The position numbers were made by a program, and so were the translations under genes. Of a stretch of DNA of 34,485 nucleotides, positions 1,201 to 28,974 are shown piece after piece (the stretch's first letter is position 1; every line of letters begins with the position of its first letter). The stretch lies in the NCBI GenBank assembly GCA_029935405.1, contig JAOZKH010000016.1, positions 1,351 to 35,835 of the forward strand, written 5' to 3'. This DNA is from Vallitaleaceae bacterium (lineage in GTDB: Bacteria > Bacillota > Clostridia > Lachnospirales > Vallitaleaceae). The notes beneath the pieces were generated by a model that ran no database searches, had not been told where the DNA came from, and saw only the letters and a list, made by a program, of their open reading frames with translations.

Positions 1201-2172
1201 ATGAAATCATTTAATAAAACAATGAGCTTTTTAGCTGGATTATTTGCAATTATGATTATTTTAAGCATAGCAGTAGCATCCTCATACATAAATCGAAATA
1301 ACTTATCAGGTTCCGATTTATGGGGAAATTCTTCTCATATTCAATTTTCTGATGATTGGGAATTTAATGGATTATTTAGTAGTAATCATAGAAGTAGTGA
1401 ATTTGAAACACTTGTTTTAACTCAAACAGATACCTTTGATCTTAAATCCGAGTTATTTATTTCTTCATCGATTGAAGAAATAACCTTTATTGAAGAAGAT
1501 AGAAATGATATTATGATTGAGTTCTATAGAGAGTATCCTGACACTTCTACATATAATGTAAAATATGAGGTAACCGAAACAATTGATCGTATCAATATTT
1601 CATCAACACTAAGTATTAGGGGATTAATTATTAATAAAGATTATAGTGGAAATATTAAAGTTCACATTCCAACAGATTATCATTTCAACAAAGTTACATT
1701 AGATTCAAGTGCAACTGTTATGAACACAGATAATATATACACAAAAACCGATGTTCTAACCATACTTGCTGATTTTGGAGATATTGATATAAATATTGAT
1801 CAACCAATAGAAACTGTAAGTATCAATTGTGATATGGGCGCTATTAAAATATATACGTCTAAAGCTATTGGAAACCTTGATATAAGCAATGATATCGGTG
1901 ATTTGTTTTTTAATATAGATGCACCTGTCAATAATGCTAATTTTAGTAGTAATCTTGGTCAAATTTCAGGTGAATTTAAGGATGAAGTTGGTCAAGTAAA
2001 TGCTTCTACAGATCTTGGGAACATAGACATTACATTCCATAAAAATGAAAATATGGTTGTGACTATCGATGTTGATTTAGGTGATAAATCTTCAGATTTC
2101 CCAACAACTAATAACTCTAAAGATTTTAGATTTTCATCAGACTTAGGTAGCGTACAAATCCACAAATATTAA
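1201..2172 (+). CDS. DUF4097-type membrane-anchored beta-repeat protein
   Basis: The 323-residue protein has an N-terminal hydrophobic segment (about residues 9-28) that could be an uncleaved signal anchor, followed by an extracytoplasmic region. From about residue 195 the sequence shows a short repeat with an xLG/xFG/xMG turn: DFGDIDI, DMGAIKI, DIGDLFF, NLGQISG, DLGNIDI, DLGDKSS and DLGSVQI. This spacing fits the stacked beta turns of the DUF4097 (adhesin-like) family. It begins 1 bp after the upstream gene, preceded by AAGGGGG, consistent with a two-gene operon. Its function is not known; a cell-surface or envelope-stress role is inferred only from the family and its DUF1700 partner. Confidence 0.75.
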   Translation: MKSFNKTMSFLAGLFAIMIILSIAVASSYINRNNLSGSDLWGNSSHIQFSDDWEFNGLFSSNHRSSEFETLVLTQTDTFDLKSELFISSSIEEITFIEEDRNDIMIEFYREYPDTSTYNVKYEVTETIDRINISSTLSIRGLIINKDYSGNIKVHIPTDYHFNKVTLDSSATVMNTDNIYTKTDVLTILADFGDIDINIDQPIETVSINCDMGAIKIYTSKAIGNLDISNDIGDLFFNIDAPVNNANFSSNLGQISGEFKDEVGQVNASTDLGNIDITFHKNENMVVTIDVDLGDKSSDFPTTNNSKDFRFSSDLGSVQIHKY

Positions 2173-2278: not shown

Positions 2279-2719
2279 TTAAATAGATTGAATACCTAAA
2301 CCTATAGCTTCATGTTCAAAACCTCTTCGAGGAGAACCTATAAAACCATACAAAACAACTGCAATCCAATCTCCACCGGAAGATTCGCCAACAGCTAATT
2401 CACCTCTTATTACTGCAAATGATAATCCAGTAGTTCTAAGTACAGAGTCAAGAGCAATATCTCCACGACAATATCCACTAAGCGCTTCACTTACTGCGTG
2501 ATAAAGTGCATGTTCCTCATGATAGTTTTCACGAATCATGTCCTCTCTATAAACAGCAGTTTCAATAGATGCATATATTTTCTTAACATCCATAGTACCA
2601 ACTTGTCCGCGTAAAAGACGATATCCTTCTTCTTCATATTGCTTAATAAGTTGATTACCTGTTTTTTTATCAGACAGTGCCAAAGTTATTGCTATTTTAC
2701 CAATACCTAACTGTTCCAT
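2279..2719 (-). CDS. hutP: HutP, histidine-dependent RNA-binding antiterminator
   Basis: This 146-residue protein matches the Bacillus HutP family (about 148 residues). HutP binds L-histidine and Mg2+, then binds NAG-triplet repeats in the hut leader RNA and prevents a terminator hairpin from forming. The expected metal and histidine residues are visible: H70 and H74 in EEHALYHAVSEAL, H136 in GFEHEAIG, and conserved arginines R85 and R95 (TRG/LRT-like segments). The ATG is preceded by AGAGG. It is the last gene of the histidine operon, 53 bp after fchA, whereas in Bacillus hutP is the first gene. Being inside the operon it controls, it should create positive feedback once histidine is present. 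A matching target lies in the leader at 9461-9477. Confidence 0.92.
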   Translation of the reverse strand: MEQLGIGKIAITLALSDKKTGNQLIKQYEEEGYRLLRGQVGTMDVKKIYASIETAVYREDMIRENYHEEHALYHAVSEALSGYCRGDIALDSVLRTTGLSFAVIRGELAVGESSGGDWIAVVLYGFIGSPRRGFEHEAIGLGIQSI

Positions 2720-2741
2720 ATTATACCTCTATTCAATATAG

Positions 2742-2789
2742 TAGATTGACAATGTATTAGACTGACAATATATTAGACTGACAACATAT
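2742..2789. repeat. Three tandem 16-bp repeats at the fchA-hutP junction
   Basis: The units are TAGATTGACAATGTAT (2742-2757), TAGACTGACAATATAT (2758-2773) and TAGACTGACAACATAT (2774-2789). The third unit encodes the last codons and part of the stop of fchA; the first two are intergenic, so copy-number change would alter the fchA end and the spacing to hutP. No function is evident. Confidence 0.85.
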
Positions 2790-3396
2790 TAAAAGCAGCT
2801 AAGGTTTCAGCTTCTATTGATAATGCAGTCTTTATTACTTCACTAATTTTTTCTTCCATGTCTTTAACAAAACTTTCATCTTTGATTGAATCAATATTTA
2901 CTTTCACATTTAGACAAGCAGACAGTACTGCTGTTCTTGATAACATAACTGCTACTAAGCCATCAGTTCTTGCATTTTTATTTCCTTTTTTCACAACAAC
3001 TGCTGCTAGTTTTTCAACTTCTAATGATTTTTTTGCCGCTTCAAAAGGTGTTATACTAGCTGCTTTTAATCCTTCTTGTATGGCTTTTGATCTTAATACC
3101 TTATCTTTATCTGTTGTTTTTGGCATAGAAAAAGCTTTCATAACAAGATTAAAGGCATCACTATCTTTTTCAATATCTTCAAGTAAGCTTTTTCGAAGTT
3201 CACTTGCTTTTGCTGCTATATCTACCATTTCATCGTTTACTTCAATATATTTTTTCTTACCTATTGTTATGTTTGCAACCATTTCAGCTAATGCGCCACT
3301 TAAACTTCCACATGCAGCAGCAACGCTTCCTCCACCTGGAACCGGCTCTTTAGATGCTGTTAAATTTCCAAATTCTTCTATTGATAATTTTTTCAT
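2773..3396 (-). CDS. fchA: Formimidoyltetrahydrofolate cyclodeaminase
   Basis: The 207-residue protein belongs to the FTCD cyclodeaminase family. It converts 5-formimino-tetrahydrofolate to 5,10-methenyl-tetrahydrofolate and ammonia in the cytoplasm. The N-terminal PVPGGGSVAAACGSLSGALAEM segment (shown by PGGGS at about residues 20-24) is the family hallmark, and the remainder is all-helical as expected. In animals this domain is fused to the formimidoyltransferase; here it is a separate gene, two genes downstream of ftcD in the same operon. The start ATG follows a GAGG ribosome-binding site. The C-terminal codons are made of the 16-bp tandem repeat at 2742-2789. The upstream 111-bp gap (3397-3507) is a purine-rich tract on the coding strand. 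Confidence 0.92.
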   Translation of the reverse strand: MKKLSIEEFGNLTASKEPVPGGGSVAAACGSLSGALAEMVANITIGKKKYIEVNDEMVDIAAKASELRKSLLEDIEKDSDAFNLVMKAFSMPKTTDKDKVLRSKAIQEGLKAASITPFEAAKKSLEVEKLAAVVVKKGNKNARTDGLVAVMLSRTAVLSACLNVKVNIDSIKDESFVKDMEEKISEVIKTALSIEAETLAAFNMLSV

Positions 3397-3507
3397 TTGT
3401 ATACCTCGTTAAGTTTATTTTATTAATATATATTATTTAATTAACTATCTGTCTTTTTATTTATCTTTTTTTTTATCTTTCTATCTTCTTATTTACTTAT
3501 CTGCATA
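3397..3507 (-). other. Purine-rich hutI-fchA intergenic tract
   Basis: On the coding (minus) strand this 111-bp gap is made largely of A and G with repeated GATA/AGATA words. I see no hairpin, promoter or ORF in it. It may simply be an unstructured spacer that keeps the fchA ribosome-binding site open. Confidence 0.5.
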
Positions 3508-4773
3508 TTACTTGCTTATCCACACAATTTTGCCATTTTTTATAACTTGTTCTACAAGATTCATGCCTAAATGATAAGCCATAAAATCAATTGATGGTTT
3601 ATTAAGAATAATCATATCACCTTTCTTACCAATCTCAAGGCTACCTATTTCATTTTGTTTATTAAGAGCACATGCTCCGTTTATTGTAAGAGCTGTAATT
3701 ATTTCTTCAATAGTCATATGCATTTTAAGAGCAGAAAGACTAATAATTAATGGAATTGAATGTGTAGGACAACTTCCTGGATTAAAGTCTGAAGCTAAAG
3801 CCACACTACAACCACTATCTATCATTTTTCTTGCCTTAGCAAATGGTTCATCTAAACTAAATGCTGTTGCTGGTAATAATGTTGCTATTGTGTCACTATC
3901 TGCTAAATCCTTTATTCCTTGATCAGATACTGCCAAAAGATGATCTGCACTTGTTGCACCTACTTGTACCGCTAGTTCACTTCCTCCTAGCGATACAATT
4001 TCATCTGCATGTATTTTGCACTTAAGTCCTAATTTTTTAGCCTTTAGAAGATAGTATTTAGATTCTTCAACACTAAACACACCTTTTTCACAAAAAATAT
4101 CAGCAAATTCAGCAAGATTTTCTTCTAATACAATCGGCAGCACTTCGTTAATAATAAAATCTATATATTCTTTACCTCGACCTTTATAATCACTAGGCAC
4201 TGAGTGTGGCCCCAAAAATGTAGAAACAATATCAACCACATGTTCTTTATTTAATTCTTGCATAACCTTTAACTGTTTTAACTCAGTATCTTTATCAAGA
4301 CCATAACCGCTTTTACCTTCAACTGTTGTTACACCCATACTAAGCATATGATTAAGTCTATTCATTCCTACATGATATAGCTCATCAAATTCTGCTTTTC
4401 TTGTCATATTAACACTACTAAAAATTCCTCCACCGGCTTTTAGAATATCCATATAACTTTCACCAGCAAGACGCATTTTAAATTCTTGTTCTCTATATCC
4501 ACCAAAAACAAAATGTGTATGAGAATCAATAAAACCTGGTAATACAGTTTTGCCTGAGCAGTCAATAATCTTAGTTGTTACTCCATTATTATTATTTAGA
4601 ACAATATCTTCACTTAAGTCATTCATCGTTCCAACATATGTGATAATACTATCTTCTATAATAACACATCCGTTGGTAATAATATTAAGTTCCATCATAA
4701 GCTTGCCACGCTTTGGTGCCGTCCCAGAAACTGGCACTAATTGTTCTATATTAATTAACGCTAATCTACTCAT
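3508..4773 (-). CDS. hutI: Imidazolonepropionase
   Basis: HutI hydrolyses 4-imidazolone-5-propionate to N-formimino-L-glutamate, the third step of histidine breakdown. The metal-binding SHTHFVFGG motif of the amidohydrolase fold, the later HADE segment (KIHADEIVSLGGSELA) and the SDFNPGSCPT segment near the C-terminus all match the family. I place the start at the ATG at 4771-4773 (protein MSRLALINIEQL..., 421 residues) and not at the first in-frame Met at 4839: the family begins here, and the extra 22 residues would be read from inside ftcD. The gene overlaps the ftcD end by 8 bp, so translation is probably coupled; a weak AGG lies upstream. The last codons happen to contain a perfect DnaA-box 9-mer. 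Confidence 0.93.
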   Translation of the reverse strand: MSRLALINIEQLVPVSGTAPKRGKLMMELNIITNGCVIIEDSIITYVGTMNDLSEDIVLNNNNGVTTKIIDCSGKTVLPGFIDSHTHFVFGGYREQEFKMRLAGESYMDILKAGGGIFSSVNMTRKAEFDELYHVGMNRLNHMLSMGVTTVEGKSGYGLDKDTELKQLKVMQELNKEHVVDIVSTFLGPHSVPSDYKGRGKEYIDFIINEVLPIVLEENLAEFADIFCEKGVFSVEESKYYLLKAKKLGLKCKIHADEIVSLGGSELAVQVGATSADHLLAVSDQGIKDLADSDTIATLLPATAFSLDEPFAKARKMIDSGCSVALASDFNPGSCPTHSIPLIISLSALKMHMTIEEIITALTINGACALNKQNEIGSLEIGKKGDMIILNKPSIDFMAYHLGMNLVEQVIKNGKIVWISK

Positions 4774-5665
4774 TAAGTAACCTATATTCAAGAACTTGAT
4801 TAATAGAAAAATTTTCAAGTCCAAGATAATACTGAGCACTATCTACTAAAGCCTCTAGTGGAACTAATCCAATAACTTCACTCCCAAGTACATTGACACC
4901 ATAGCGCTTGCACTCCATCTTAACTGTTTCAAGCACACGATATATTGCTGTTTTTGAGTAATCAGTTAAATTCATAGATACTTCTACGATTCCACGTTCT
5001 TCAAGTTCAACACCCATCGCTTTACAGTATCTAAAACCACCATTCATATGGCGAATTTGTTTACCAATTTTAGTTGCTATTTCTAAATTATCTGTATCCA
5101 ACTTAATATTATAAGCTATTAATGGCATTCTAGCACCGATTGCTGTTACTCCACCTGTTGCATGAATAGTTTTTGGTCCAAAGTCAGGTATCCACTGCTC
5201 ATCTTCCATTTTTTTTGCCATTCCTTCAAACTGTCCTTTACGAACTTTTGCAAGATTAACTCTATGAGTTTGAGTTGCTGACTTTTCATATAAGAAGAAA
5301 GGGTATTCATACTTAGCACTAGCTTCTTTAGCAACTTCTTTAGCAAGTTCATCTGCTTCTTCAATCGTCATATTCTTAATAGGAATAAATGGAATAACAT
5401 CGACACAACCCATACGTGGATGTTGACCTTCATGTTTAGTCATATCAATATTTTTAATAGCAAGTCCAATAGCTTCTACTATTGCTTCTTTCATTGCTTT
5501 TGGCTCACCAATAACAGTTACAACACTTCTATTATGGTCTTCATCAGAACTATAATCAAGAAGTTTTACTCCCTTTTTACCTCGAAATGCATCAATGATT
5601 TTTTCAAGGTTTTTAAGATCACGACCTTCACTAAAATTTGGCACACATTCAACTATTTTATTCAT
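4766..5665 (-). CDS. ftcD: Glutamate formimidoyltransferase
   Basis: FtcD transfers the formimino group of N-formimino-L-glutamate to tetrahydrofolate and releases glutamate. The 299-residue protein starts MNKIVECVPNFSEGRD, the typical N-terminus of the formimidoyltransferase family, and contains the HPRMGCVDVIPFIPI segment (the folate-site region) and the ATGGVTAIGARMPLIAYN segment. Its length fits the stand-alone transferase without the cyclodeaminase domain, which is supplied by fchA downstream. The ATG follows AGGAGAG. There is no formiminoglutamase (hutG-type) or deiminase gene in the cluster, so this folate route is the apparent exit of the pathway here. The start of hutI overlaps its last codons. 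Confidence 0.94.
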   Translation of the reverse strand: MNKIVECVPNFSEGRDLKNLEKIIDAFRGKKGVKLLDYSSDEDHNRSVVTVIGEPKAMKEAIVEAIGLAIKNIDMTKHEGQHPRMGCVDVIPFIPIKNMTIEEADELAKEVAKEASAKYEYPFFLYEKSATQTHRVNLAKVRKGQFEGMAKKMEDEQWIPDFGPKTIHATGGVTAIGARMPLIAYNIKLDTDNLEIATKIGKQIRHMNGGFRYCKAMGVELEERGIVEVSMNLTDYSKTAIYRVLETVKMECKRYGVNVLGSEVIGLVPLEALVDSAQYYLGLENFSINQVLEYRLLNE

Positions 5666-5740
5666 TTTTTCTCTCCTATACTTATTCCAAATTTATCGAT
5701 TACATTGTGAATTTTATTAAACATTTCATGAGTTTATTAA

Positions 5741-8700
5741 TTATTTTGTGAGTTTATCAATTAACTTGTTACTTGCAACAAATGGTATCGTAATATGATT
5801 ATCTTTACCATATTCACGATTGTATTGCTCAACCGTTTCCATAGCATGTTCATTACGAGCCCAGTTTCTTCTTGCAACACCTACCATTGTATCCCATGGA
5901 ACGCTTGAAAGCAATATTTCATCTACTCTTTCGCTACCGTCAAGAACCATACCAAAACCACCATTAATTGCTTTTCCAATTCCAACACCTCCACCATTAT
6001 GAAGCGCTACTAAACTCATACCTCTTGCTGCATTTCCTGCAAAACATTGTATTGCCATATCAGCTGTAACATTACTACCGTCTTTAATATTAGATGTTTC
6101 TCTAAAAGTTGAATCCGTACCACCTGTATCATGATGATCTCGACCTAACATAATAGTTCCCACAACACCGTTACGTACCATTTCATTAAATTTAAGTGCA
6201 ATATCACGACGACCAATTGCATCTTGATATAATATTCTCGCCTTCGTTCCTACAACTAATTGATTCTTTTTTGCATCACGAATCCATATCCAATTATCTC
6301 TATCTTGACCACGACGATTAGGATCAATAACATCCATTGCCGCCTGATCTGTTTTATCAAGATCTTCCTCTTTGCCACTTAAGCATACCCATCTAAAAGG
6401 TCCATATCCATAATCAAATAACATAGGTCCCATTATATCTTCTACATATGATGGAAAAATAAAACCTTCACTTGTATCATTACCATTTTTTGCAATATCT
6501 GTTGCGCCTGCATCAAAAACAGCTTTCATAAATGCGTTTCCGTAATCAAAGAAATAAGTACCCATCTCAGATAACTTTTTAATCATCTCAAAGTGATGTT
6601 TAAGTGATTTATTAACTAATTTTCTAAAATATTCTTTATCTTCACGAAGTAATCTCGTTCTTTCATCAAAGTCTATTCCTTGAGGACAATAACCTCCATC
6701 ATATGGAACATGACAAGATGTTTGATCAGATAATAAGTCAATATGAATATTCTTATCAACTGCATATTCAAGAAGATCAATAATATTACCATGATAAGCT
6801 ATTGCAATAGTTTTTTTAGCCTCTTTATACTCTTTTGCTAGTGCAAATATTTCCTTTAAATCTGTAGATACTTTTGTTATCCATCCTTGTTTAATTCTTG
6901 TTTCAATTCTTGAATAATCTACTTCTGCAACAATTCCTACTCCACCAGCTATTTCTATAGCTTTTGGTTGTGCTCCACTCATACCTCCAAGTCCTGATGT
7001 TACAAATAAGTATCCTGAAAGATCTTCTGTATCACCAATTCCAAGTTTAAGCCTTCCTGCATTAACAAGTGTATTAAAGGTACCATGTACAATTCCTTGA
7101 GGCCCTATATACATAAAACCACCTGCTGTCATCTGACCATAACTTGAAACGCCCATTGCACAGGCTTTTGACCAATCAGTAGGATTATCAAACATGCCAA
7201 TCATAAGTCCATTAGTTACAATTACTCTAGGACTTCTCTTATGAGACTTAAATAATCCTAATGGATGCCCTGATGAAATAACTAATGTTTGCTCATCTGT
7301 TAATTGTTCTAGATACTTTTTGATTAATCTATACTGCATCCAATTTTGACAAACTTGTCCTGTTTCACCATATGTAACCAATTCATACGGATACAGGGAA
7401 ATATCAAAATCTAAATTATTATCAATCATAACTTGAATTGCTTTGCCTTCCGTACAATTTCCTTTATATTCTTCTATAGGTTTTCCATAGATATGTCCCT
7501 CTGGCCTAAACCTATAACCGTATATACGACCTTTAGTCATTAACTCTTCAAGAAACTCTGGTGCCACCTGGTCATGTAAATTTTTTGGAATATAACGAAG
7601 AGAATTTTTAAGTGCTAACTTAATCTCTCTTTCATTAAGTAATAATTCTCTCTTTGGCGCTCTTCTATATTGTGAATCAATTTCAGGCATTTTTGGTAAT
7701 GTATTATCTAATTTAATAATTACATTATCAGTATCTTTATCTATATTAATTTCTTTTTCTTTGTCTATGTCATATATTAGTGTTGTTAATTTTTCACTTG
7801 TTATTAGTGTTTCACATGAATTAATATCATCATACATTTCTCTATCAGCAGTTAAAATAGGAACTACGCTTCTAATCATTGTATATGCACCTTTTGTAAC
7901 TTTACCAAGGGCTTTTTTCTTGACTTTTTGTGTGTCTTCACTACTATATATATCTTCACTCTTATTTGAAGTATTTACAGAAAGTTGACTTTGCTGTTCT
8001 CTTCTAAGATCTATCGCTTGTGTTGCACACATTAATTCCATAGAAATAACACGTCTTACATTTTTAAGAATCTCTCTAGCTTTTCTTGCTCCAATAGTAC
8101 CCATTGATACGTGGTCTTCTTGGTTTGCTGAAGAAGGAATACTATCTACACTTGCTGGATGTGATAATATTTTATTTTCTGATACTAATGCTGCCGCTGA
8201 ATACTGGACAATCATAAATCCAGAATTAAGACCACCTTCTTTTACTAAAAACCCTGGTAAACCACTTAGAGCTGGATTAACTAAACGCTCAATTCTTCTC
8301 TCTGAAATACTAGCAAGTTCTGAAAGTGCAATTCCCATAAAGTCAAATGCTAATGCTACTGGTTGACCATGGAAGTTACCACTTGAAATACCTTCCTTAG
8401 TATCGCTAAAAATAATTGGATTGTCAGTTACAGAATTCATCTCTATTTCTACTTTTTCTTTAACAAAATTAATTGCATCACGACTAGCTCCATGTACCTG
8501 TGGTGTACATCGAATAGAATATGCATCTTGTACTTTTACTTCACCTTGAACCGTTGTCATTTCGCTACCTTTTAGCATATTTAAAATATTAAGTGCAGAT
8601 TTCATTTGGCCATCATGTGGTCTTACCTCATGAATTCTTGGGTCAAGCGCTGTCGTTATTCCAAGTAATGCTTCATATGTCATAGAAGCACTTAAATCGG

Positions 8701-9364
8701 CAATATCTAATAATTTATCTGCATCATAAACCGTATGTGCTCCAACAGAAGTCATAACTTGGGTTCCATTAATTAAAGCAAGTCCTTCTTTTGATGTTAA
8801 TTCAACAGTACTAATATCTGCTTTTTTCATCGCTTCTTCACCTGACATGATTTCACCACAATATTCAGCCTTACCAAGACCTAACATAGGCAATACCATA
8901 TGTGCCAAAGGAACCAAGTCACCACTTGCTCCAAGCGAACCTTTTTCTGGTACTATCGGATGTACTTTTTTATTTAACATTTCAACCATTGTTTGAATAG
9001 TTTTAAAACGAATACCTGAGTAACCTTTTGAAAGATTGTTAATTCTAAGAAGCATAATTCCTCTAACAATTTCTGTATCAAAATTTTCACCACCACCAAC
9101 GGCATGAGAAATAATTAGATTTTTCTGAAGTTGTTTAGATTCTTCTTTATTAATAACTACTTCACTAAAGTTTCCAAATCCAGTTGTAACTCCGTATACA
9201 ACCTTACCTTCTTCAACAAATTCATCAACTACTGCTCTTGAATCACATATTTTTTCCTTTGCATCATTTGCTATTTGAAGTTTTATATTATGTCTTGTTA
9301 CTGCAATAAACTCATCTAAAGTCAAATGAATACCATCAATAGTTACTTTATCATATTTTTGCAT
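5741..9364 (-). CDS. HutH-HutU fusion: histidine ammonia-lyase / urocanate hydratase
   Basis: One uninterrupted 1207-codon frame encodes two complete enzymes. Residues 1 to about 530 are histidine ammonia-lyase (histidine to trans-urocanate and NH3): the YGVTTGFGNF segment (57-66), the self-cyclising A-S-G of the MIO cofactor in GSLGASGDL (146-148), SGNFHGQP (328-335) and QEDHVS (415-420) are all present. Residues about 548-1207 are urocanase (urocanate to imidazolonepropionate, NAD+ as prosthetic group): IKLDNTLP, ALKNSLRYIP (584-593), RFRPEG, GQMTAGG (743-749), GLGGMSGAQ (791-799), SDQTSC and GRDHHDTGGTD. The linker is only about 15 charged residues, and I see no ribosome-binding site for a separate hutU start. 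The HutH part carries an extra stretch of about 25 residues (456-482) between AIDLR and the conserved LGKVTKGAY. The start ATG follows GTGAGG. It is the first gene of the hut operon, behind the attenuator leader. Confidence 0.95.
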   Translation of the reverse strand: MQKYDKVTIDGIHLTLDEFIAVTRHNIKLQIANDAKEKICDSRAVVDEFVEEGKVVYGVTTGFGNFSEVVINKEESKQLQKNLIISHAVGGGENFDTEIVRGIMLLRINNLSKGYSGIRFKTIQTMVEMLNKKVHPIVPEKGSLGASGDLVPLAHMVLPMLGLGKAEYCGEIMSGEEAMKKADISTVELTSKEGLALINGTQVMTSVGAHTVYDADKLLDIADLSASMTYEALLGITTALDPRIHEVRPHDGQMKSALNILNMLKGSEMTTVQGEVKVQDAYSIRCTPQVHGASRDAINFVKEKVEIEMNSVTDNPIIFSDTKEGISSGNFHGQPVALAFDFMGIALSELASISERRIERLVNPALSGLPGFLVKEGGLNSGFMIVQYSAAALVSENKILSHPASVDSIPSSANQEDHVSMGTIGARKAREILKNVRRVISMELMCATQAIDLRREQQSQLSVNTSNKSEDIYSSEDTQKVKKKALGKVTKGAYTMIRSVVPILTADREMYDDINSCETLITSEKLTTLIYDIDKEKEINIDKDTDNVIIKLDNTLPKMPEIDSQYRRAPKRELLLNEREIKLALKNSLRYIPKNLHDQVAPEFLEELMTKGRIYGYRFRPEGHIYGKPIEEYKGNCTEGKAIQVMIDNNLDFDISLYPYELVTYGETGQVCQNWMQYRLIKKYLEQLTDEQTLVISSGHPLGLFKSHKRSPRVIVTNGLMIGMFDNPTDWSKACAMGVSSYGQMTAGGFMYIGPQGIVHGTFNTLVNAGRLKLGIGDTEDLSGYLFVTSGLGGMSGAQPKAIEIAGGVGIVAEVDYSRIETRIKQGWITKVSTDLKEIFALAKEYKEAKKTIAIAYHGNIIDLLEYAVDKNIHIDLLSDQTSCHVPYDGGYCPQGIDFDERTRLLREDKEYFRKLVNKSLKHHFEMIKKLSEMGTYFFDYGNAFMKAVFDAGATDIAKNGNDTSEGFIFPSYVEDIMGPMLFDYGYGPFRWVCLSGKEEDLDKTDQAAMDVIDPNRRGQDRDNWIWIRDAKKNQLVVGTKARILYQDAIGRRDIALKFNEMVRNGVVGTIMLGRDHHDTGGTDSTFRETSNIKDGSNVTADMAIQCFAGNAARGMSLVALHNGGGVGIGKAINGGFGMVLDGSERVDEILLSSVPWDTMVGVARRNWARNEHAMETVEQYNREYGKDNHITIPFVASNKLIDKLTK

Positions 9365-9402
9365 TTAATTACCTCACTTTTTTCAGATCTTTCCTATAAC
9401 AA

Positions 9403-9448
9403 ACAAAAATAAAAAAAAACAAATAAACTGTACTTAAACAGATTATTT
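9403..9448 (-). terminator. Leader terminator (attenuator) of the hut operon
   Basis: On the coding strand, AAATAA-T-CTGT, a 6-nt loop and ACAG-T-TTATTT form a stem (9448 to 9421) with one T-T mismatch, followed by G and ten T residues. This is a rho-independent terminator between the promoter and the hutH-hutU start, so most transcripts should stop here unless the hairpin is opened. The hairpin is AT-rich, so its strength is uncertain. Confidence 0.75.
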
Positions 9449-9460
9449 GCCTCCATATAT

Positions 9461-9581: not shown

Positions 9582-9611
9582 AAAAAAAGTCCTACCCTGG
9601 TGGTAGGACTT
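9582..9611 (-). terminator. Intrinsic terminator of rsmA
   Basis: A perfect 10-bp stem, AAGTCCTACC / GGTAGGACTT (9587-9596 with 9602-9611) with a 5-nt loop, is followed on the minus strand by seven T residues. It ends the rsmA transcript about 100 nt after its stop codon and separates it from the hut promoter. Between the stop and the hairpin (9612-9710) I see only AT-rich sequence. Confidence 0.9.
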
Positions 9612-9710: not shown

Positions 9711-10574
9711 TTAACTCTGCAATTTCTTTGCTAATTCAACAAATTCATCTAAATTCAATGCTTCTCCTCTTATCGTTACAGAAATGCCTAGTTCAGTGAG
9801 TGCTTCTCTAATCTTGTCCTTTGATAATTCTAATTCTTCTTGATGTGATAGTGTATTTACTAAGGTTTTTCGTCGCTGTTGAAAAGCACCTCTAATCACT
9901 TTAAATAAAAACACATCATCTAGACCCATATCTATATATTTATCAGTAGCCTTTAATCTTATTACAGAGGAGCCCACCTTTGGCCTTGGTATAAAACAAC
10001 TTGGTGGTACTTGCACAACTACTTTTGGTTCTGAATAATATTTGACTGCTAAAGTTAATGATCCAAAATCTTTGGTTGATGGATTAGCTTGCATTCTATC
10101 TGCTACTTCTTTTTGCACCATTACTGTAATAGAATCTAGTGGTATATGAGTTTCGAAAATTTTCATGATAATTGGTGTCGTAATATAATACGGTAAATTA
10201 GCAATAATTTTCACTTTTTTTCCTTGCCATTTTTCCTCAATTAATTGATTTAAGTCTATTTTCAAGACATCTTGTTCAATAATGGTTACATTATCATAAT
10301 CAATAAGCGTTTCTTCTAAAATCGGTATTAACTTTTTATCTATTTCTATTGCAATGACTTCCCGTGCATTATCTGCCAAATATTGTGTTAAGCTCCCTAT
10401 ACCTGGTCCTATTTCAATAACAACATCATCTTTTGATAATTCTGCGCCACTAACAATCTCTTCAAGTATTCCCTGATCTACTAAAAAGTTTTGCCCATAT
10501 TTTTTCTTGAGATGAAATCCATATCGTTCCATTATTAATTTAGTTCTAAGCGGTGTTGAAATTTTATTATTCAT
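9711..10574 (-). CDS. rsmA: 16S rRNA dimethyladenosine transferase
   Basis: RsmA (KsgA) dimethylates two adjacent adenosines in the 3'-terminal helix of 16S rRNA during small-subunit assembly, using S-adenosylmethionine. The 287-residue protein shows KKYGQNFLVDQ near the N-terminus, the SAM-binding EIGPGIGSLT (54-63) and the catalytic NLPYYI (126-131). Length and motifs are normal for Firmicutes. It is a monocistronic unit: its own promoter lies in the gap shared with the divergent ArsR gene, and a strong terminator follows. Upstream of the ATG is AAGGA. Confidence 0.95.
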   Translation of the reverse strand: MNNKISTPLRTKLIMERYGFHLKKKYGQNFLVDQGILEEIVSGAELSKDDVVIEIGPGIGSLTQYLADNAREVIAIEIDKKLIPILEETLIDYDNVTIIEQDVLKIDLNQLIEEKWQGKKVKIIANLPYYITTPIIMKIFETHIPLDSITVMVQKEVADRMQANPSTKDFGSLTLAVKYYSEPKVVVQVPPSCFIPRPKVGSSVIRLKATDKYIDMGLDDVFLFKVIRGAFQQRRKTLVNTLSHQEELELSKDKIREALTELGISVTIRGEALNLDEFVELAKKLQS

Positions 10575-28764: not shown

Positions 28765-28974
28765 ATGAATGAATTAAAAATAAATACAGATTTTATTAAG
28801 TTAGGACAACTAATGAAGCTTGCAGGGTTTGCTGATTCAGGATCATATGCTAAAATATTTATTAAAGAAGGTTTGGTTAAAGTAAATGGTGAAATAGATA
28901 TACGTAGAGGAAGAAAAGTTTATCAAGGAGATATAGTATCTTTTGAAGATAATGAAGTAAAAGTAATAGTATGA
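28765..28974 (+). CDS. yaaA: S4-domain RNA-binding protein YaaA
   Basis: A 69-residue S4-like domain protein (LGQLMKLAGFADSGSYAKIFIKEGLVKVNGEIDIRRGRKV) of the YaaA/RlbA family found between dnaN and recF in Firmicutes. It is linked to ribosome assembly in Bacillus. The ATG follows AAAGGAG, and its stop overlaps the recF start by 4 bp (ATGA). Confidence 0.94.
   Translation: MNELKINTDFIKLGQLMKLAGFADSGSYAKIFIKEGLVKVNGEIDIRRGRKVYQGDIVSFEDNEVKVIV

Follow-up and report, generated by a model that had tools for sequence, protein, structure and literature searches.

The 34,485-nucleotide stretch analysed here (the window; contig JAOZKH010000016.1 of the Vallitaleaceae bacterium assembly GCA_029935405.1, positions 1,351 to 35,835, forward strand) carries a gene, hutHU, in which histidine ammonia-lyase (HutH) and urocanate hydratase (urocanase, HutU) are encoded in one continuous reading frame. 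This is very likely a real and rare gene fusion giving a working bifunctional enzyme, the main effect of which would be a fixed 1:1 ratio of the two steps. HutH converts histidine to urocanate and ammonia, HutU converts urocanate to imidazolonepropionate, and later enzymes of the pathway lead to glutamate and one-carbon folate. The two are textbook consecutive enzymes; what is new is the fused arrangement, the chemistry being as known.

One open reading frame for two enzymes

The gene and its parts are as follows.

5741..9364, minus strand: hutHU, HutH-HutU fusion, one open reading frame of 1207 codons (reading frame call, Pfam and NCBIfam)
7772..9364, minus strand: HutH (histidine ammonia-lyase) part, residues 1-531, with the 4-methylideneimidazole-5-one (MIO) triad A146-S147-G148 (TIGR01225 and active-site positions)
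7922..8002, minus strand: insert of about 27 residues in the C-terminal region of HutH, residues ~455-481, rich in Ser, Lys, Glu and Asp and predicted to be unstructured (alignment and predicted local distance difference test, pLDDT)
7727..7771, minus strand: linker, residues 532-546, DIDKEKEINIDKDTD, 15 residues rich in Asp and Lys (junction comparison with five operons of order f63)
5744..7726, minus strand: HutU (urocanate hydratase, long type) part, residues 547-1207 (PF17391, PF01175, PF17392 and TIGR01228)

Translation starts at an ATG at 9364 on the minus strand and yields 1207 residues, with no internal stop or frameshift across the 1207 codons. In Pfam, residues 13-465 match Lyase_aromatic, and Urocanase_N, Urocanase and Urocanase_C all fall in the stretch 625-1178. 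The NCBIfam matches include the separate models hutH (TIGR01225, 669.6 bits, cut-off 539.15) and hutU (TIGR01228, 428.5 bits, cut-off 375), and no model of a bifunctional HutH-HutU protein was among them. The gene is the sole match to PF00221 and also the sole match to PF01175 in the source assembly, a 2.9-Mb draft of 250 contigs. A look for repeats over 5700-9400 returned nothing notable. The coordinates and the length of 1207 residues given in the initial annotation, in which the strand was unstated, are correct, and with both families above their cut-offs and all three urocanase domains present, its description of two complete enzymes in a single frame holds as well.

The same is true of its statement that the catalytic motifs are intact. 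In the HutH part, each of the 11 active-site positions that were checked is conserved, namely A146-S147-G148 and eight further residues; the positions were chosen by the numbering of the P. putida enzyme and mapped on a HMMER alignment. The Ala-Ser-Gly triad of HutH forms the MIO group. No unique change was found at columns invariant in all other rows (72 rows; two distant and three shorter rows of 77 were left out). Family score, MIO triad and the checked positions are thus shared with solved HutH proteins (1gkm and related entries, 6v6h and 7tqr), from which the window HutH differs in its 27-residue insert and in running on into urocanase instead of ending. The insert precedes the last helices, about 50 residues before the fusion junction, and its 81 nucleotides preserve the frame. 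The segment that holds it is 41 residues long in the window and 13-20 residues long in 73 other HutH rows, a few genomes being counted twice.

The nearest solved relative of the HutU part is 6uek, a long-type urocanase of 681 residues, which is aligned nearly over its full length (chain 17-664; E 1.6e-169). With this long type (TIGR01228) the window shares the nearly full-length match, the motif GLGGMSGAQ and the cysteine of FRWVC, which is conserved in 109 of the 110 rows of that type, a count that includes the window; what it lacks is a HutU start codon of its own. Tightly bound NAD+ is a mark of urocanate hydratases. The column that corresponds to Cys410 of the short-type P. putida urocanase holds Leu in the window, in 6uek and, again counting the window, in 109 of the 110 rows. 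Leu at this position marks the long-type urocanase, a Cys there belonging to the short type and not to the whole family.

The junction and the case for a fusion

Judged by eye, the homology to HutH runs to about residue 531 and that to HutU sets in at about residue 547. The 15 residues between them occupy the place where five operons of another clostridial order (coded f63), all with two separate genes, have the stop of hutH and the Shine-Dalgarno site and start of hutU. No in-frame ATG, GTG or TTG was found between 7837 and 7690. Pairing with the anti-Shine-Dalgarno sequence is predicted at -1.1 to -2.9 kcal/mol for three candidate internal starts, at -5.8 to -9.9 kcal/mol for the five gene starts of the hut operon and at -6.3 to -14.7 kcal/mol for ten of 11 other genes in the window. 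Linker, start scan and pairing energies agree with the initial proposal of a link of about 15 residues in a continuous frame with no internal start or ribosome-binding site.

Adjacent hutH and hutU genes on one strand were found in 64 rows representing 56 distinct places (eight appear twice), and at least one stop lies between the genes in all of them. Both genes share a frame in 40 of the 56 distinct pairs, a Shine-Dalgarno-like motif is present in the gap of 51, and in 26 a single in-frame stop separates the two; these counts come from the best 80 of 583 loci in a ranking by match to the fused protein, which enriches the set for same-frame pairs. The adjacent pairs of Clostridia and Fusobacteria (for example L025, L027, L028 and L033, and L131-L135 of order f63) have the same gene order as the window and often the same frame, but each consists of two genes that one or more stops keep apart, whereas the window gene is fused. 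The 26 single-stop loci, from Clostridia and Fusobacteria (L025, L027-L031, L033 and others), are one mutation short of a fusion, yet their genes are separate.

It had been anticipated at the outset that relatives might carry separate genes with an identical junction broken by a stop. The broken junction does occur, in the 26 of 56 pairs just described, but the window junction is not identical to it. We rejected the junction of the relatives as proof against a fusion because the window has changed by more than one stop, having also lost the Shine-Dalgarno site and the start. The same observation bears on the possibility that a sequencing or assembly error removed the stop between two true genes, an idea to which the draft state of the assembly (250 contigs) and the 26 single-stop pairs lend some weight. 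A lost stop or a single insertion or deletion would spare the start and the ribosome site of hutU, yet both are gone, so a single sequencing error is insufficient to produce the fusion. In addition, the 15 linker codons and the 81-nucleotide upstream insert both keep the frame, and the flanking genes stand in the order of the host genus, so the contig is not foreign. We regard such an error as highly improbable, and the fusion is very probably real and not a sequencing artefact.

A frameshift near the end of hutH or a change of its stop is a possible route to the fusion. At 7772 there is a TGA, two positions out of frame, that may match the hutH stop of the f63 genome G552, where hutU is shifted by one position relative to hutH. 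A frameshift origin of the junction is possible but unproven, as hutH and hutU share a frame in the close relative G647 and the sequence here is rich in A and T.

Even with one open reading frame, the cell could make two proteins, either by a cut in the linker or insert or by an internal HutU start, the enzymes then acting as a separate tetramer and dimer. Linker and insert, in both of which charged and polar residues are abundant, have pLDDT values below 50, and an in-frame ATG exists at 7690. The candidate internal starts, however, pair with the anti-Shine-Dalgarno sequence at just -1.1 to -2.9 kcal/mol, and a start at 7690 would cut off the conserved VIIKLD segment of HutU. No cleavage site came up, in an analysis that included no search aimed at one. 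Two proteins from this frame therefore seem unlikely, and a single bifunctional chain is favoured.

The ratio of nonsynonymous (dN) to synonymous (dS) divergence from G552 is about 0.09 for HutH (dN 0.16, dS 1.7) and about 0.14 for HutU (dN 0.19, dS 1.4). These values indicate that hutHU is under purifying selection. They also bear on the idea that the fusion is neutral or decaying, in which a newly acquired and little used operon would have drifted, fusion and insert included, with one activity weakened. Such decay would be in keeping with the unique HutH insert, with two HutU changes at otherwise invariant columns and with the presence of hut genes in only this genome of four searched in the genus. 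It fits poorly with the 1207 codons free of stops and frameshifts, with the open frames and family matches of the other four operon genes, with the absence of unique HutH changes at invariant columns and with dN/dS far below 1. We consider drift quite improbable, somewhat less so than a sequencing error, and prefer a maintained, working fusion.

Several observations count against a working bifunctional enzyme. The window gene at 28971 also pairs weakly (-1.3 kcal/mol), and a weak score alone is no proof that a start is unused; the linker may be cleaved, or a rare ATT start at 7750 may be used. dS is near saturation against G552 and saturated against G483, and much or most of the divergence behind the dN/dS values may predate the fusion. 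The two HutU changes, A588S and W750F, are unique at columns invariant in 109 other rows, and two such changes are reached by only seven of 110 rows, the window included. An AlphaFold2 model (24 sequences; mean pLDDT 71, predicted template modelling score 0.50), in which pLDDT falls below 50 at residues 461-482 and 534-573, predicts the HutH core mostly well and the HutU part patchily; being of moderate quality, it is too weak for domain packing or assembly. Finally, the evidence comes from a single assembled genome.

The hut operon and its origin

hutHU is the first in a series of genes on the same strand (2279-9364), followed by ftcD, hutI, an FchA-like gene and hutP.

9415..9454, minus strand: leader hairpin and U-run, terminator-like, upstream of hutHU (RNA minimum free energy -13.7 kcal/mol, z -5.34)
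4766..5665, minus strand: ftcD, glutamate formimidoyltransferase (TIGR02024, 408.7 bits, cut-off 221.25)
3508..4839, minus strand: hutI, imidazolonepropionase (TIGR01224, 458.1 bits, cut-off 298.15; match from residue 56)
2773..3396, minus strand: fchA-like cyclodeaminase/cyclohydrolase, FTCD_C (PF04961, 206.3 bits)
2279..2719, minus strand: hutP, transcription antiterminator, last operon gene (NF002838, 159 bits, cut-off 155)
9711..10574, minus strand: ksgA (rsmA), host gene at one operon edge (Pfam/NCBIfam and identity to same-genus genomes)
1201..2172, plus strand: toastrack/DUF4097 gene, host gene at the other operon edge (neighbour order in same-genus genomes)
525-1199: HAAS gene beside the toastrack gene

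The mechanically called hutI frame (GTG at 4839) overlaps ftcD by 74 bases (4766-4839). The real start of hutI probably lies further downstream, inside the called frame, because the family match begins only at residue 56. The fchA-like gene is below the NCBIfam cut-off for FchA (190.6 against 275). A hutP gene and, ahead of the first enzyme gene, a hairpin resembling a terminator are features of a HutP-controlled hut operon, and the window has both. None of 200 shuffles gave a hairpin as good as that of the leader, and hairpins lie at the same position upstream of hutH in four f63 operons (energies were computed for three, and G552 was read by eye), which indicates that the leader hairpin travelled with the operon. 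HutP binds NAG triplets spaced 4 nucleotides apart. Read by eye, the triplets just before the hairpin are TAG-N4-TAG in G483 and NAG-N4-AAG in the other three f63 leaders, and the window leader (9402-9460, minus strand) has TAG and then ATG at that spacing. Rfam at gathering thresholds gave no match in the window.

The search covered three genomes of the same genus, G001, G002 and G003. In each of them the HAAS gene and the toastrack gene stand together right next to ksgA, and a query with HutHU gave no match. As the flanking genes neighbour each other there with no hut match, the hut operon (2279-9364) looks like an insertion from outside the genus between the toastrack gene and ksgA. The ksgA protein is 65-66% identical to that of the three same-genus genomes and 39-45% identical (best hit each) to that of ten f63 genomes with a match, G552 having an additional partial match at 48%. 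A contaminant contig was rejected, as ksgA and the flanking gene order match the host genus. A terminator-like hairpin with a T-run follows ksgA (9587-9611, minus strand) near the boundary between host gene and hut operon.

In quick trees the window HutU groups with four rows from f63 (SH-aLRT 97); the window HutH groups with six such rows, which come from four genomes (SH-aLRT 100). The host family forms a separate group. The order hutH-hutU-ftcD-hutI-fchA-hutP recurs in all four f63 loci that extend far enough to reveal it; identity between these loci and the window is 74-76% for HutU, 70-77% for FtcD and 65-68% for HutP, and hutH is incomplete in one f63 locus (L135). The operon probably came in as one unit, by horizontal transfer from an f63 relative. 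Two results speak against this source: HutU is most identical, at 78%, to a Sedimentibacter protein (L067), and its shortest tree path leads to one of Tissierellales (L071), both outside f63. Because plain similarity of HutU points outside the order, the operon is best described as coming from a probable f63-like source, which comparison of the whole operon supports. Base composition was set aside as evidence of origin: GC content is 0.32-0.34 in the hut region and 0.24-0.31 in most of the window, but the other end of the window also reaches 0.32-0.34. The fusion postdates the divergence from the f63 genomes examined and may have come before or after the transfer.

Rarity, assembly and meaning of the fusion

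Across 141 loci, found by searches with the whole protein or PF01175 (some matches being fragments at contig ends), the only frames of at least 900 residues with motifs of both enzymes were L001 and L002, both from this genome. Matches were present in 49 of 392 genomes of the host order and 54 of 391 of the host class (own genome included in each), in 43 of 294 genomes of a further sample, apparently from the same order as the 49 of 392, and in five of 11 genomes of order f63, which overlaps the class sample. Further afield, they occurred in at least 157 of the 398 genomes from the phylum to which a Wohlfahrtiimonas genome belongs, in 36 of 98 from that of Fusobacterium and in 15 of 149 from a spirochaete phylum. 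Among the matches listed in the sampled order, class, phyla and f63, there was no second unbroken frame with both enzymes; the survey left out Bacteroidota, Actinomycetota, Bacilli and eukaryotes.

Candidates for a second fusion fell away on inspection. The open frame of 1244 in G021 has stops between the genes, 1244 being the length of the whole span (523 + 28 + 693 codons), that of 1022 in G1138 has HutH and HutU in different frames, and those of G015 (1204) and G647 (1077) have stops inside them. A one-piece match in a Fusobacterium vincentii record (H3) of a plasmid collection has two in-frame stops between the genes. That collection held 913 matching records, two of which were examined, and a phage collection held 14; neither was combed for fusions.

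No description of a HutH-HutU fusion was found in the text available from open-licence PubMed Central, a scope that leaves subscription papers and full UniProt architectures outside. The available parts of PMC9413887, PMC13320830, PMC10746286, PMC12288474, PMC9002059, PMC8305020, PMC9943010, PMC12375414, PMC4349456, PMC10640624 and PMC7106674 name separate hut genes or have no bearing on a fusion. Within these genomes and this literature, our searches bear out the earlier remark that no bacterial example was known. An unnoticed database entry with the same fusion is likely to exist, even if no study does.

Taken together, the comparisons suggest the following course of events. The operon would have been gained as a unit from an f63 relative, with the toastrack gene and ksgA on either side of its landing site. 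Later than the divergence from the f63 genomes examined, and either in the host lineage or in an unsampled donor, the already adjacent hutH and hutU would have merged through loss of the hutH stop and of the hutU ribosome site and start, with the charged 15-residue linker in their place. In the resulting protein, the HutH part would deaminate histidine to urocanate and the HutU part would hydrate urocanate to imidazolonepropionate, which HutI, FtcD and the FchA-like protein would take on to glutamate and one-carbon folate. Any benefit would come from having the first two steps expressed together and at a fixed 1:1 ratio; the gain from proximity would be modest at most. The single frame, the lost signals, the single copy, the insertion site and the tree placement are direct observations, and the transfer, both activities, the stoichiometry, the assembly and any benefit are conclusions drawn from them.

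HutH is a tetramer with 222 symmetry and urocanase is a dimer, and the initial annotation held that the fusion must solve a symmetry mismatch. This was overstated: a two-fold dimer axis is part of the 222 symmetry, so a dimer fits the tetramer and the problem is not severe. The HutH parts could form their usual tetramer while the HutU parts pair as dimers, the linker and the 27-residue insert giving slack. A more elaborate arrangement, in which HutU parts dock on the HutH tetramer by way of insert and linker, is doubtful. It would form one particle, for example a four-chain one built of a HutH core and two HutU dimers, and channel urocanate with little escape; it would be the first HutH-HutU assembly. 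Channelling of urocanate, also raised initially, is neither supported nor excluded by our data; we hold it to be possible but improbable.

Formiminotransferase-cyclodeaminase (FTCD) and the fused enzymes of histidine biosynthesis are known fusions of consecutive steps. hutHU likewise joins consecutive steps of histidine or one-carbon metabolism but involves other enzymes; here the halves of FTCD are separate (ftcD and the fchA-like gene), whereas HutH and HutU are fused.

Many relatives are one stop away from a fusion and none in the groups sampled has one, so that this fusion seems to be easily reached and rarely kept. Compared with the separate-gene operons of order f63, hutHU would offer a natural experiment on stoichiometry, urocanate leakage and fitness, and on how a tetramer and a dimer can share one chain. 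It also presents a clear case of an operon that appears to have been inserted into its host while carrying a change unseen in its relatives.

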